DNA from: Chloroflexota bacterium
GTDB taxonomy: Bacteria > Chloroflexota > Anaerolineae > B4-G1 > DUEL01
Length of the DNA stretch: 64,000 bases
Reading direction: 5' to 3'
NCBI GenBank assembly: GCA_014874475.1
Contig: JADBJJ010000029.1
Span: 62,001-126,000, forward strand
Position numbers and translations under genes: made by a program. Positions 2,394-7,490 of this stretch are shown piece by piece. Every line of letters starts with the position of its first letter. Within the stretch, counting starts at the first letter, position 1. The notes beneath the pieces are model-generated. The model saw only the letters and a program-made list of their open reading frames with translations, had not been told where the DNA came from and ran no database searches.

Positions 2394-3467
2394 ATGAGAA
2401 AGCGTTCGTTCTATCCTGTGCTGGTCGCAATGACCATCGCCATCACACTGCTGGCGGGTTGCGCCCAACCGACGCCGGTCCCGCCGACTCCGACGCCGGT
2501 GCCACCCACCGCGACGCTGGTCCCGCCGAGCCCGACGCCGCTGCCGCCCACGCCGACGCCGGAGCCCACCCCAGTGCCGCCGTCCGCTGTCATCCTGGAG
2601 GCCGCGTCGGCCTACTTCTCCAAAGGGATGAAACTGATCGCCGCCGACGCTCTCTATGAGAACCTCAACGATGGCGACGCGTCCAACGATCCGCTCATCC
2701 TGGACATTCGCAAGCCGGAAGACTATGCCCTGGGCCACATCAAGGGCGCGGTGAACATCGGCGCAGCGAACATCTTTGAGGCGGATATCCTGGCGAAACT
2801 CCCCAAGGATAAGCCCATCGTCGTCTACTGCTACAGCGGGCAGACCTCCGGGCAGGTAGTGGCAGCGCTGAACATGCTGGGCTACGATGCCCATAGCCTC
2901 CGCTTTGGTATGCCCTCCTGGGCGCTGGTGGAAGGCGTCTCCGCCGGGCCGTGGAAGAACGAAATGAGCAAAAACTACCCGCTGGATCTAGAAGCCGCCC
3001 AACTGGCAGAGGGCAACTTCCCAACACCGGAACCGCTGGGGCAGGACGTCGCCTCTGCCGCCCTGGCCTACTTCTCCAAAGGGATGAAACTGATCGCCGC
3101 CGATGCTGTCTATGAGAACCTCAACGACGGCGACGCGTCCAATGATCCGCTCATCCTGGACATTCGCAAGCCGGAGGACTACGCCCTGGGTCATATCAAG
3201 GGCGCGGTGAACATCGGCGCGGGGGCCATCTTCACCCCGGAGACGCTGGCGAAACTGGACCCAAAGCGCCCGATCGTCGTCAACTGCTACACTGGGCAGA
3301 CCTCCGGGCAGGTAGTGGCAGCGCTGAACCTGCTGGGCTACGACGCCCATAGCCTCCGCTTTGGCCTGCCCTCCTGGGCGCTGGTGGAAGGCGTCTCCGC
3401 CGGGCCGTGGAAGAACGAAATGAGCAAAAACTACCCGCTGGATATGGAGCCCCACCAGTTGCCGTAG
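2394..3467 (+). CDS. tandem rhodanese-domain lipoprotein
   Basis: 357 residues. The lipobox LLAGC at about residues 19-23 predicts a lipoprotein anchored outside the cytoplasmic membrane, followed by a long Pro/Thr-rich spacer. Two rhodanese-like domains follow (roughly residues 75-200 and 225-350), each with a candidate active-site cysteine in YCYSGQTS and NCYTGQTS. Rhodaneses carry persulfide sulfur on that cysteine. The two domains are almost identical even at DNA level, so the duplication is recent. AAGGAGGAG lies just before the ATG. The context among cytochromes and an NrfD subunit points to sulfur-compound respiration or sulfur delivery, which is an inference. Confidence 0.85.
   Translation: MRKRSFYPVLVAMTIAITLLAGCAQPTPVPPTPTPVPPTATLVPPSPTPLPPTPTPEPTPVPPSAVILEAASAYFSKGMKLIAADALYENLNDGDASNDPLILDIRKPEDYALGHIKGAVNIGAANIFEADILAKLPKDKPIVVYCYSGQTSGQVVAALNMLGYDAHSLRFGMPSWALVEGVSAGPWKNEMSKNYPLDLEAAQLAEGNFPTPEPLGQDVASAALAYFSKGMKLIAADAVYENLNDGDASNDPLILDIRKPEDYALGHIKGAVNIGAGAIFTPETLAKLDPKRPIVVNCYTGQTSGQVVAALNLLGYDAHSLRFGLPSWALVEGVSAGPWKNEMSKNYPLDMEPHQLP
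2611..3442 (+). repeat. in-frame internal duplication inside the rhodanese lipoprotein gene
   Basis: The segment from about 2611 to 2986 recurs at about 3067 to 3442, offset 456 nt (152 codons), with only scattered substitutions. Blocks such as CTACTTCTCCAAAGGGATGA are unchanged in both. Confidence 0.85.
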
Positions 3468-3559: not shown

Positions 3560-4948
3560 GTGCGAAAGGGAATCTGGCTGTTTTTTGGCGGCCTCCTGGG
3601 GCTGGTCCTGGCGGCCTGTCTGGCCCGACCGGAGATTACCCCATTACCGCCCAGCCCGATGCTCCCCGCCGTCCCCACCCTGGAGGCCACTCCGGTCCCC
3701 CCCACAGAGACCCCGGCGCCCGCGGCGGATAGCAGTACCTGTATTGCCTGCCACACCAGCGAGGAGACGCTGAGAGCGCTGGCCGTGGAGCCGGAGGAAG
3801 TGGAGCACCTCTCCGAGGGGGAAGGTTGAGGGGGCTCATTGCCTCCGTTGGAGGCATGGGAGAAAGTCTTCCTGGATGACCAGGCGCTGGGCGAGGCCCA
3901 CGCCGGCCTGGGCTGTATCGCCTGTCACGGCGGCGTCGGCGGGACAACGGATAAGGAGGAGGCCCACCAGGGCATCGTCCGCGACCCCGACCCGGCCCAG
4001 ACCTGCGCGTCCTGCCATGAGTCTGTCGTAGAGACCCACCAGGATAGCCTGCACGCAACTCTGGCGGGATACTACACGGTGCTCCGGGCCCGCAGCGACG
4101 AGGAACACTGGCCCCAGTTGATGACGGCCTTTGACAACCACTGCGACGACTGCCACGCTTCCTGCGGTCAGTGCCACGTGAGTCGGCCCACCATCAACGG
4201 GGGCGGCTTGCTGGCGAAGCACGAGTTTAAGGTTCCGCCGCCGATGAACCTGACCTGCACCGGCTGCCACGGTTCCCGGGTCAACGACGAGTACAAAGGC
4301 AAAAACCAGACGGCCGATGGGCAGCCCATACCCGCCGACGTCCATTTTAACCCCGGCGGGATGGCCTGCTTCGTTTGCCACAGTGGGGACCAGATGCACG
4401 GCGCGCCGGGTGTCTTCAACCACCGCTACGATGGCCCACCGGACCCCTCCTGCACCCAGGCGGGATGCCATGAGAACATTGGCGGGCCGGATGACTCCAT
4501 CGTCTACCACTCCAAACCCCATATGGAGAAGGTGCAGTGCCAGGTCTGCCACGCAGCGCCCTACAAGCACTGCTACAACTGCCATGTGCAACTCTCCGAA
4601 GAGGGCGTCCCGTATTTCAAGTCCGACCCGTCGGAAATTTACTTCATCATCGGGAAGAACCCCATCCAGAGCCCAGAGCGGCCTTGGGAATACGTGGTGC
4701 TGCGGCACGTGCCGGTGGCGCGGGATTCCTTCGCCTATTACGGCGAGAATTTGCTGCCCAACTTTGATGCACGGGAGACCTGGACCTACGCTACGCCGCA
4801 TACCATCCAGCGCCGCACCCCGCAGACGGAGTCCTGTAACGCCTGTCACGGGAACGCGTCTCTCTTTTTGACGGAGGACTTCGTCCGCCAGAAGGCGCCG
4901 GACGAGGTGGAGGCGAATCGGAAGGTCATCGTGACGAAGATACCGTAA
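3560..4948 (+). CDS. multihaem cytochrome c lipoprotein with an in-frame TGA, candidate selenoprotein
   Basis: One reading frame runs from the ATG at 3560 (SD AAGGAG) to 4948, interrupted only by TGA at 3827-3829 (codon 90). Upstream are a lipobox (LAAC), a Pro/Thr linker and haem motif CIACH. Downstream, in the same frame, are ten more haem motifs: CIACH, CASCH, CDDCH, CGQCH, CTGCH, CFVCH, a CX4CH (CTQAGCH), CQVCH, CYNCH and CNACH. The decahaem paralogue at 1421 has its first two haems continuous across this point, so both halves belong to one protein. The TGA context reads EGEG-U-GG, and a perfect hairpin starts 10 nt after it. Selenocysteine is my preferred reading; a nonsense mutation or reinitiation at TTG 3839 are alternatives. 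Confidence 0.75.
3835..3862 (+). promoter_or_regulatory. candidate bacterial SECIS element after TGA 3827
   Basis: TGCCTCC (3840-3846), loop GTT (3847-3849) and GGAGGCA (3850-3856) form a 7-bp perfect stem; CTC at 3835 and GAG at 3860 can extend it past an internal loop. Seventeen nucleotides separate the TGA from the loop and the first loop base is G. This agrees with the bacterial SECIS model as I remember it (loop 3-14 nt, G in the first two positions, 16-37 nt from UGA). Confidence 0.6.
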
Positions 4949-4952
4949 AAGC

Positions 4953-4986
4953 GATGGGGGTCGGCGGAAGTCGCCGACCCCCCATC
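4953..4986. terminator. bidirectional terminator between convergent genes
   Basis: GATGGGGGTCGGCG and CGCCGACCCCCCATC form a long GC stem around a short loop between the convergent cytochrome and ATPase genes, with ATTTCT after it on the plus strand. Confidence 0.7.
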
Positions 4987-7153
4987 ATTTCTCCCTCACC
5001 AGCAACCGCATCCCGTTCAGAATCACCAGCAACGAAACTCCCACATCGGCGAAGACAGCCATCCAGAGGGTCGCCAGGCCAGCCACAGCCAGGGCCAGGA
5101 AGGCCGCCTTGGCAACCAGGGAGAAGGCCACGTTCTGACGGATGATGGAAACCGTCCTGCGGCCCAGACGGACCGCGCGCGGCACCCCCCAGAGGTCATC
5201 CCCCATCAGCGCCACATCGGCGGTTTCCAGCGCGATATCGGAGCCAACGGCGCCCATGGCGATGCCCACGCTGGCCCGGGCCAGCGCCGGGGCATCGTTC
5301 ACCCCGTCGCCCACCATAGCAACCGTCCCATAGCGGAGTAACAGTTCCTCAATGACTTCCACTTTCTGCGCCGGGAGCAACTCCGCCCGAAATTCATCCA
5401 CCCCCGCCGCCCGGGCTACCCGTTCCGCCACCGCCGCACGGTCGCCTGTAAGCATCGCCGTCCGACGGATGCCCATCCCTTTTAGCGCGCGGATGACGGC
5501 AGCAGCCTCCGGACGCAGCGCATCCGCCACCACCCCGTAGGCCCGATTGCCGCAGCAGACGTCCTCCACGACTACCGCTGTCCGCCCCCGCTCAGAGATG
5601 GCGTCCACTTGCCGACAGAAGGGATTATCTTCCTCCCGCTCCCCGTGGACGTAGGCGTGGCTGCCCACTTTGATCGCGTGGCCCGCCACCTGTCCCTGCA
5701 CTCCGCGCCCGGGTGTGCTCTCCACTGCCTCGGCCAGGCCGTACCGGTCGGCGACACCCAAATCTTCTGCCGCACGCACCACCGCCCGGGCCAGCGGATG
5801 GCCAGAGCGGGCCTCCACCGCTGCCGCCTTCGCCAGCAGGTCCAGACAATCCGGACACTCCTGCGGACTCTGTTCCGTCCGGTGATTGGCGCACTGCCCG
5901 TCCACCAGCCGGGGCTCCCCCAGGGTCAGGGTACCGGTTTTGTCAAAGGCGACGGCGCGCAGACGGGCCAGTTCCTCCAGGTGGATACCGCCCTTGATCA
6001 AGATGCCGGCGCGGGCCGCCGCCGTCAGTCCGCTGACCACGGCGACGGGAGTGGAAAGGACCAGCGCACACGGGCAGGCGATGACCAGCAGGGTCAGTGC
6101 GCGGTAGATCCATTCCGGGAACGGGCCCAGGCCTATGAGGGGCGGAACCGTCGCTACCAACAGCGCGCCCACCACCACCGCAGGCGTATAGACGACGGCA
6201 AAGCGATCTACCAGCCGCTGGCTGGGGGCTCGTTGCTCCTGCGCCTCTTCCACCAGGTGGACCATCCGCGCCAATGTGCTATCAGATGCCGCGCGGGTCA
6301 CTTCCACCGTCAGCGCGCCGGGGCCGTTGATGGTCCCGGCAAAAACCTCATCCCCCGGTCCCTTCTCCACCGGCATGCTCTCACCGGTAATGGGGGATTG
6401 GTCCACCAATGATCGCCCCTCCCGAACCCGTCCATCGGCGGGGATGCGCTCGCCAGAGCGGATGAGGACCTGATCTCCTACGGCCAGCGCCTCCACCGGC
6501 ACCCGTTCTTCCCCTTCCGGTGTCCAGCGGGTGGCTTCCGATGGGCGTAGCGCCATCAGCGCGCGGACGGCACGCCGGGCCCGGTCCATCGTCAGCGCTT
6601 CCAGCAGTTCCCCTACCGAGAAGAGGAAAACGACTACGCCGGCCTCGGCGTACTCGCCGATGGCCAGTGCGCCGATGATGGCGACGGTCATCAGACCGTT
6701 CATATCGGGGCGGCGGGTAGCGCGCAGAGCAGCCCAGCCGGCCCGAACGACGGGGTACCCGCCGACTATGGCAGCGGCAATCAGCAGCCCGTCCCGCAGC
6801 AGGGCGGGGCTGGCCAGCAGGTGGGCTACCAGGGCCATCACCAGCAGGAGGCCCGATAGCGCTGTGGGTAGCACCCGCGGATGGCGGCGCAGCCAGTCCC
6901 TCGCGCCGCTCCCCTCGGCCGCCGACGTGATCGGGAGGACCTGATAGCCCATCCTCCGCGCCACCGCCTGCACCTGCGGAATCACCCCGTCCCCTTCCGC
7001 AATCAGGCGCATCCGGCCGGTGGTGAAGAAGACCTCTGCCTGCCGTACTCCCGGCACGCCAGAGGCGGCTTTTTCCAGGTGGAGGGCGCATTCAGCACAG
7101 TCCATCCCCTCCACTCGCAGCAGAAAAGTCTGCGGATTCCCCTCCAGGCTCAT
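4985..7153 (-). CDS. cadA: heavy-metal-transporting P1B-type ATPase (Zn/Cd/Pb efflux class)
   Basis: 722 residues. The N-terminal HMA domain carries GMDCAEC. It is followed by membrane helices, the actuator loop (TGES), the transmembrane CPC motif (IACPCALVLS), the phosphorylation site DKTGTLT and the hinge GDGVNDAPAL. CPC with a CadC-like repressor next door favours divalent soft-metal export (Zn, Cd or Pb) over copper. GGAGAGAAAGG precedes the ATG. The start lies 62 nt inside the end of the upstream ArsR-type gene, so translation is probably coupled. It is expected to be derepressed by metal through that regulator. Confidence 0.93.
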   Translation of the reverse strand: MSLEGNPQTFLLRVEGMDCAECALHLEKAASGVPGVRQAEVFFTTGRMRLIAEGDGVIPQVQAVARRMGYQVLPITSAAEGSGARDWLRRHPRVLPTALSGLLLVMALVAHLLASPALLRDGLLIAAAIVGGYPVVRAGWAALRATRRPDMNGLMTVAIIGALAIGEYAEAGVVVFLFSVGELLEALTMDRARRAVRALMALRPSEATRWTPEGEERVPVEALAVGDQVLIRSGERIPADGRVREGRSLVDQSPITGESMPVEKGPGDEVFAGTINGPGALTVEVTRAASDSTLARMVHLVEEAQEQRAPSQRLVDRFAVVYTPAVVVGALLVATVPPLIGLGPFPEWIYRALTLLVIACPCALVLSTPVAVVSGLTAAARAGILIKGGIHLEELARLRAVAFDKTGTLTLGEPRLVDGQCANHRTEQSPQECPDCLDLLAKAAAVEARSGHPLARAVVRAAEDLGVADRYGLAEAVESTPGRGVQGQVAGHAIKVGSHAYVHGEREEDNPFCRQVDAISERGRTAVVVEDVCCGNRAYGVVADALRPEAAAVIRALKGMGIRRTAMLTGDRAAVAERVARAAGVDEFRAELLPAQKVEVIEELLLRYGTVAMVGDGVNDAPALARASVGIAMGAVGSDIALETADVALMGDDLWGVPRAVRLGRRTVSIIRQNVAFSLVAKAAFLALAVAGLATLWMAVFADVGVSLLVILNGMRLLVREK

Positions 7154-7490
7154 CCTTTCTCTCCAAAACGTGTTCTAGGGCGTCGCGAAAGAGATCGCGG
7201 ACATGGTCGTCGTCCAGCGCATAGAGGACCCGCTTGCCTTCCCGTCTTCGGCGGACCAGCCGCATCTGGAGAAGATAGCGCAATTGGTGAGAAATGGCCG
7301 ACACACTCATACCCAGCCGGGATGCCAGTGCCCCAACACACTGCTCCTCCTGGGCCAGCACTGCCAGGATGCGCACGCGCGTGGGGTCGGCCATTGCCCG
7401 GAATATCTGGACCATCGCCTGAACGGTGGGGCTATCCACCGGAATCTCTGCCTTTTCCGCTGGAAGGAATTCCTCTATCATTTGCACCAT
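7092..7490 (-). CDS. cadC: ArsR/SmtB-family metal-responsive repressor (CadC-like)
   Basis: 132 residues with a winged-helix core. ADPTRVRILAVLAQEEQCVGAL contains the CVGAL segment that in CadC/ArsR proteins holds a metal-binding cysteine, and the recognition helix region is GMSVSAISHQLRYL. The gene precedes and overlaps the efflux ATPase gene. A SmtB-like operator and a good promoter lie immediately upstream of its ATG, so autoregulation is very likely. There is no obvious Shine-Dalgarno before ATG 7490. The C-terminal tail beyond HVLE is longer than usual and is the part that overlaps cadA. Confidence 0.9.
   Translation of the reverse strand: MVQMIEEFLPAEKAEIPVDSPTVQAMVQIFRAMADPTRVRILAVLAQEEQCVGALASRLGMSVSAISHQLRYLLQMRLVRRRREGKRVLYALDDDHVRDLFRDALEHVLERKDEPGGESADFSAASGGDGLC

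Follow-up and report, generated by a model that had tools for sequence, protein, structure and literature searches.

The closest described system is ExtKL of Geobacter, an envelope five-haem cytochrome with one predicted selenocysteine (Sec), for which reduction of selenite or tellurite has been proposed (PMC5877670, PMC13188914). A second case is the octahaem OTR (tetrathionate-reductase) family TIGR04315, in which one Sec form is annotated in GenBank (PMC13188914, Table 1). The bacterial SECIS element that directs Sec insertion is defined by an apical loop of 3-9 nt, a stem of 4-16 bp, MFE ≤ -7.5, a G in the first two loop positions, and a distance of 16-37 nt from UGA to loop (PMC13188914, section 5).

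The cytochrome described here, very likely a selenoprotein, resembles ExtKL in its gene clusters, which also encode a rhodanese-like protein and further multihaem cytochromes. However, it has 11 haem motifs rather than five haems, and its partners are NrfD and FeS proteins or cytochrome b561 instead of the porin ExtI and Rieske/cytochrome b proteins. The ExtKL model NF040886 matched none of 54 family members at E ≤ 0.01, and the protein of the analyzed locus did not match it even at E ≤ 10. OTR proteins are likewise multihaem cytochromes, and an OTR-like protein is a neighbor in some loci, but they carry eight haems against 11 motifs; TIGR04315 matched only two of the 54 members, weakly (best E-value 3.1e-5), and membership was not met. 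The model of the CXXCH protein GSU2204 (NF041027) was not among the matches of the 54 members at E ≤ 0.01. Selenoprotein DG, which has a GUxG motif (NF049953, 172 model positions), was considered and rejected: there is no match at the locus, and the best match in the genome (E = 0.017) lies elsewhere. Like other SECIS-dependent selenoproteins of bacteria, the cytochrome combines a UGA codon with tRNA-Sec, SelB, and a downstream stem-loop that has G in the first loop positions at 16-37 nt; unlike them, it has no Cys form, and its GUGG motif lacks a partner Cys. Finally, modules of the Qrc/DsrMKJOP type provide the best models (QrcD, DsrO) for the neighboring NrfD and FeS subunits. These modules correspond to partners of the Sec cytochrome and not to the Sec protein itself.

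None of the 119 families and subfamilies in a 2026 catalogue (PMC13188914, Table 1) matches this cytochrome, and no Sec cytochrome besides ExtKL and the OTR entry was found in the literature searched. Earlier detection in a groundwater MAG survey, mentioned in the same review as a source of unvalidated candidates, is not excluded.

The gene and its internal UGA codon

The analyzed stretch of DNA (64,000 nucleotides, hereinafter the window) begins with a run of genes on one strand: a 4Fe-4S subunit, NrfD, a decahaem paralog, a tandem rhodanese, and the Sec cytochrome. The features are as follows.

41-430, + strand: 4Fe-4S subunit, DsrO/TtrB-like; its start precedes the window, and the joined contig gives 233 aa
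427-1410, + strand: NrfD-type membrane quinone subunit (PF03916, 1e-38)
1421-2311, + strand: decahaem paralog that lacks the Sec loop (10 CXXCH; 19-residue gap over the loop in the alignment)
2394-3467, + strand: tandem (two-domain) rhodanese lipoprotein, a conserved partner (PF00581, 3.5e-36; active-site Cys kept)
3560-4948, + strand: undecahaem c-type cytochrome, very likely Sec-containing, predicted lipoprotein (462 aa, Sec as residue 90)
3827-3829, + strand: UGA codon, very likely read as Sec, in the loop GEG-U-GG (position matched in 73 aligned TGA copies and further ones)
3840-3856, + strand: bacterial SECIS hairpin, 7-bp stem TGCCTCC/GGAGGCA and loop GTT (supported by fold, covariation, and codon freeze)

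Translation of the 463-codon cytochrome frame gives TGA at 3827-3829 as the sole internal stop and TAA at 4946-4948 as the terminator. The product has 11 haem motifs, namely 10 CXXCH and one CX4CH (CTQAGCH); one motif precedes the TGA, and ten, including CTQAGCH, lie beyond it. The only uncertain feature is the start codon, which may be GTG at 3560 or a nearby one. The lipobox LAAC predicts a lipoprotein, from which export is inferred.

The preliminary description, made from sequence alone, had claimed a single TGA splitting one frame with 11 haem motifs, a 7-bp hairpin with a G-first 3-nt loop at offsets of 10 and 17 nt, and an uninterrupted paralog at 1421. The first claim held on translation, and the second held exactly: the hairpin begins 10 nt and its loop 17 nt after the TGA. 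The third claim also held; since the paralog lacks the entire Sec loop, it provides no test of the residue.

The first two helices of the AF2 model (pLDDT 91.8, pTM 0.88) are followed by a long coil, which contains Sec. A PDB sequence search with the single protein revealed no relative, and a search with the family profile yielded only matches at the level of haem motifs. Foldseek comparison of this confident model with the PDB gave nothing at E ≤ 0.001, a weak negative result for a loop-rich fold.

Conservation of the UGA codon and the SECIS hairpin

The TGA codon was counted in (i) the order of the window genome, (ii) 396 genomes of its class, (iii) other genomes of the phylum, and (iv) Acidimicrobiia. 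Within the order, all seven matches that span the site have TGA, while the eighth begins downstream of it. The class search found the protein in 74 genomes, 68 of which have TGA at the exact position. Elsewhere in Chloroflexota, TGA is present in two genomes, one of them (G415) with two copies and the other G512. Among Acidimicrobiia (Actinomycetota), it was observed in three MAG loci and, in a search of that class, in seven of seven matching genomes. In total, more than 80 TGA copies from two phyla retain the frame, the haem motifs, and the hairpin. Identity among distant relatives falls to 43-50%, yet the UGA codon persists, as does the loop that surrounds U. Comparison thus shows one family spread over Chloroflexota, in the class of the window genome and in others, and over some Actinomycetota. 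The Acidimicrobiia members (L021-L023, L144-L150), with TGA and SECIS, are nested in the tree next to the order of the window genome, a placement that suggests transfer between phyla. Three long members of the family (L015, L036, and the second copy in L053) have about 18-21 CXXCH motifs and 750-830 aa, and are apparently fusions with further haem domains. A second TGA in G862 and G995 was dismissed, as it is no internal codon in the aligned region and is presumably the terminator.

These data bear on the simplest alternative, a nonsense mutation, a pseudogene, or an assembly error. In its favor are the MAG-like contigs and the single stop. However, more than 80 independent copies share this TGA while their frame, haem motifs, and hairpin are intact, and this explanation is all but excluded.

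The hairpin meets all the published criteria for stem, loop, position of G, spacing, and MFE. It folds at -11.5 kcal/mol, which is equalled by one of 200 shuffles. The two strands of the window together contain 1746 TGA triplets, and only one is followed by a strict version (7-bp Watson-Crick stem, G-first 3-nt loop, 16-20 nt). Looser SECIS criteria are satisfied after 8% of these triplets, so the hairpin alone does not prove Sec. No Rfam family matches it.

Stronger evidence is provided by the relatives. In nearly all of the 73 aligned TGA copies, a loop that opens with G lies about 17 nt downstream of UGA, and the stem is 6-11 bp long in nearly all TGA relatives. In 59 distinct sequences, 94.4% of the stem cells are paired, and four of the seven pairs show two-sided changes. 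These occupy 24 cells, a number not reached by any of 500 shuffles, and pairing in slid versions does not exceed 54%. In one clade, the third pair changed from C-G to G-C (CCT..GGAGGCA to GCT..GGAGCCA), converting Pro-Pro-Leu-Glu-Ala to Ala-Pro-Leu-Glu-Pro. Because this compensatory swap alters two amino acids at once, it is the RNA, and not the protein, that has been held. L021 shows a U-A to G-C change, a further clade has the stem CCCTCC/GGAGGG, and in L091 the usual stem is lost and CCCGCGCT-GGA-AGCGTGGG occurs instead at 20 nt. Codon usage points the same way. The loop Leu codon (+7) is TTG in 64 of 66 sequences, whereas TTG has a share of 18.5% in the rest of these genes (p = 2e-44), and the stem Pro codon (+6) is CCG in 66 of 66. 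This freezing of stem codons demonstrates selection on the RNA.

The genome of the window (3.0 Mb, 97.7% complete) encodes SelB, SelA (581 bits), SelD (328 bits; contig C1, 121458-122381), and a tRNA-Sec (72.1 bits; anticodon TCA according to ARAGORN). SelD is likewise predicted to be a selenoprotein: its gene has an in-frame TGA in ASCAG-U-AGK, the canonical position and a known Sec site. SelB is present in 63 of the 68 TGA genomes of the class as opposed to 261 of the other 328 (Fisher p = 0.006). Since it is common in the class regardless (324/396), co-occurrence alone is weak evidence. Three of the five TGA genomes without SelB have tRNA-Sec; the other two are MAGs with completeness of 72 and 80%. 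The three Acidimicrobiia MAGs have tRNA-Sec at 73-77 bits. In the third family of the order, no genome showed the cytochrome, and none is among the holders of SelB or tRNA-Sec. A 47-bit match in G022 was excluded as tRNA-Sec, its score being equal to that of tRNA-Ser in the window genome. In G275, a single contig (C2) carries both the tRNA-Sec gene (148945-149037) and the Sec cytochrome gene (155872-157059), about 7 kb apart.

Another alternative is a real stop, which would separate two proteins or serve as a regulatory signal, with low-level read-through that inserts a different amino acid such as Trp. A TTG start is available at 3839, and one relative, L029, has TGG at the UGA position. Against this, the second piece would have no export signal, yet haems of c-type cytochromes are attached outside the cytoplasm. 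In addition, the stem and the G-first loop covary at the spacing expected for SelB, and the Sec machinery accompanies the gene. Moreover, TGA is the terminator of 12 of the 38 large frames in the window, hence UGA is not generally recoded. We consider a real stop very unlikely. The gene at 3560-4948 thus very likely encodes a selenoprotein in which UGA 3827-3829 is decoded as Sec, a conclusion established by comparison and without proof at the protein level.

Probable loss of Sec in individual lineages

Six copies have a sense codon at the UGA position, encoding Trp, Leu, His, Phe, or Val. L029, with TGG, has an intact hairpin, and its sister species have TGA. L033 has TTG and a hairpin with one mismatch. 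In L052 (CAC), the second copy of L053 (TTT), and L054 and L055 (both GTG), the hairpin is gone. Most sense copies are on long branches. As the maximum-likelihood tree requires only four changes of state to explain them, compared with 73 TGA rows, the sense copies look like derived losses, and Sec is likely the ancestral state. Their persistence implies that some copies can do without Sec.

The preliminary description had proposed looking for selA, selB, selC, and selD in the genome and for a conserved TGA or a Cys codon in relatives. SelA, SelB, tRNA-Sec, and SelD are all present, and relatives from different genera, families, and orders, and from two phyla, retain the TGA. The search for Cys failed: no relative found has Cys at this position. 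It had also named a sense codon other than Cys without a hairpin as a refutation; this situation does occur in the few copies listed above and is read as loss on the basis of the tree. Overall, its Sec reading is supported, as the machinery, the conserved TGA, and SECIS covariation all favor Sec. In the absence of a Cys form, the usual argument from Cys/Sec pairs is unavailable, while the SECIS argument is untouched.

Methods that rely on Cys/Sec pairs would overlook this family for the same reason. Standard gene calling would truncate the protein at UGA or start it downstream. The Sec cytochromes form a selenoprotein family that is widespread and deeply conserved, and it was not found in the published catalogue.

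Genomic neighborhood and putative function

In 50 of the 73 loci there is a rhodanese gene, always on the same strand as the cytochrome, whose product has one to several domains. In the window, it is an internal tandem duplication with near-identical domains and the active-site Cys loops CYSGQTS and CYTGQTS. Two kinds of quinone module recur across the loci, (i) a QrcD-like NrfD protein together with an FeS protein resembling DsrO and an octahaem cytochrome, and (ii) cytochrome b561 accompanied by multihaem cytochromes, including an OTR-like one (L107, 3227-4777). Partnership of the Sec cytochrome with the rhodanese and the quinone modules is shown by this comparison. A LysR gene is found in 32 of the 73 loci, mostly on the opposite strand. 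The best curated model for the LysR protein tested (L074, 5623-6588) is the selenium metabolism-associated LysR NF040786, at 194.9 bits with a cut-off of 250, and regulation of the cytochrome by selenium supply is conceivable.

The Sec position is 28-31 residues past the first haem motif and 29-32 residues before the second, with nearly constant spacing in the family alignment. This location, midway between haems 1 and 2, would suit a selenolate-Fe axial ligand tuning one of them, and a haem or metal ligand was suggested in the original reading of the locus. However, the alignment contains 11 invariant or nearly invariant His residues outside the motifs, the same number as haems and enough for bis-His ligation of all 11, which leaves no haem that requires Sec as a ligand. 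Furthermore, the non-ligands Leu, Phe, or Val replace it in sense copies. The ligand role is unlikely and is not supported as such.

A selenite or tellurite reductase like Geobacter ExtKL, which is found beside the ExtH rhodanese, is another option. It is suggested by the common theme of a rhodanese, a Sec multihaem cytochrome, and a quinone-linked electron module, by weak matches to the ExtM, ExtN, and ExtO models, and by the best model of the LysR neighbor, even if below its cut-off. On the other hand, the ExtKL model matches no family member, the ExtI porin was not seen among recurrent neighbors, and the ExtM and ExtN matches are generic haem-motif matches far below cut-off. We regard a direct ExtKL counterpart as unlikely.

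The comparison shows that UGA 3827-3829 is very likely decoded by SelB and tRNA-Sec under the direction of the SECIS at 3840-3856, in an 11-haem lipoprotein inferred to be exported. Our preferred, though tentative, model for its function is that Sec forms an active site for chalcogen chemistry, supplied by the rhodanese and connected through the haems. No Cys outside the haem motifs is conserved in the family at any position except that of Sec, which therefore has no thiol partner. Within the model, the Sec loop would be the active site, with the selenolate as a lone chalcogen nucleophile lacking a conserved resolving Cys. It may accept sulfane sulfur, or selenite- or tellurite-like species, from the neighboring tandem rhodanese, and the haem chain would move electrons between the Sec site and the quinone pool via the NrfD/FeS/multihaem cytochrome or cytochrome b/multihaem cytochrome partners. 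The balance of evidence falls slightly short of this model, which is inferred only from neighborhood and conservation. The reactivity of Sec, the sulfane-sulfur substrate, and the direction of electrons are all inferences, and reduction as opposed to oxidation has not been shown. A bolder version, which we mention merely as a possibility, is a distinct respiratory module in which a lone selenolate without a resolving thiol, in a loop between two haems of the 11-haem envelope cytochrome, receives sulfane sulfur or a Se/Te analogue from a multi-domain rhodanese and couples chalcogen chemistry directly to the haem chain and the quinone pool. In both Chloroflexota and Acidimicrobiia, the family points to an unrecognized module for selenium-dependent electron transfer that has the rhodanese as a defined partner.

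In the window, the operon is adjoined on the opposite strand (4985-7490) by genes for a heavy-metal-type P-type ATPase and then an ArsR-like regulator, and similar P-type ATPases are encoded beside the Sec cytochrome in a few relatives.
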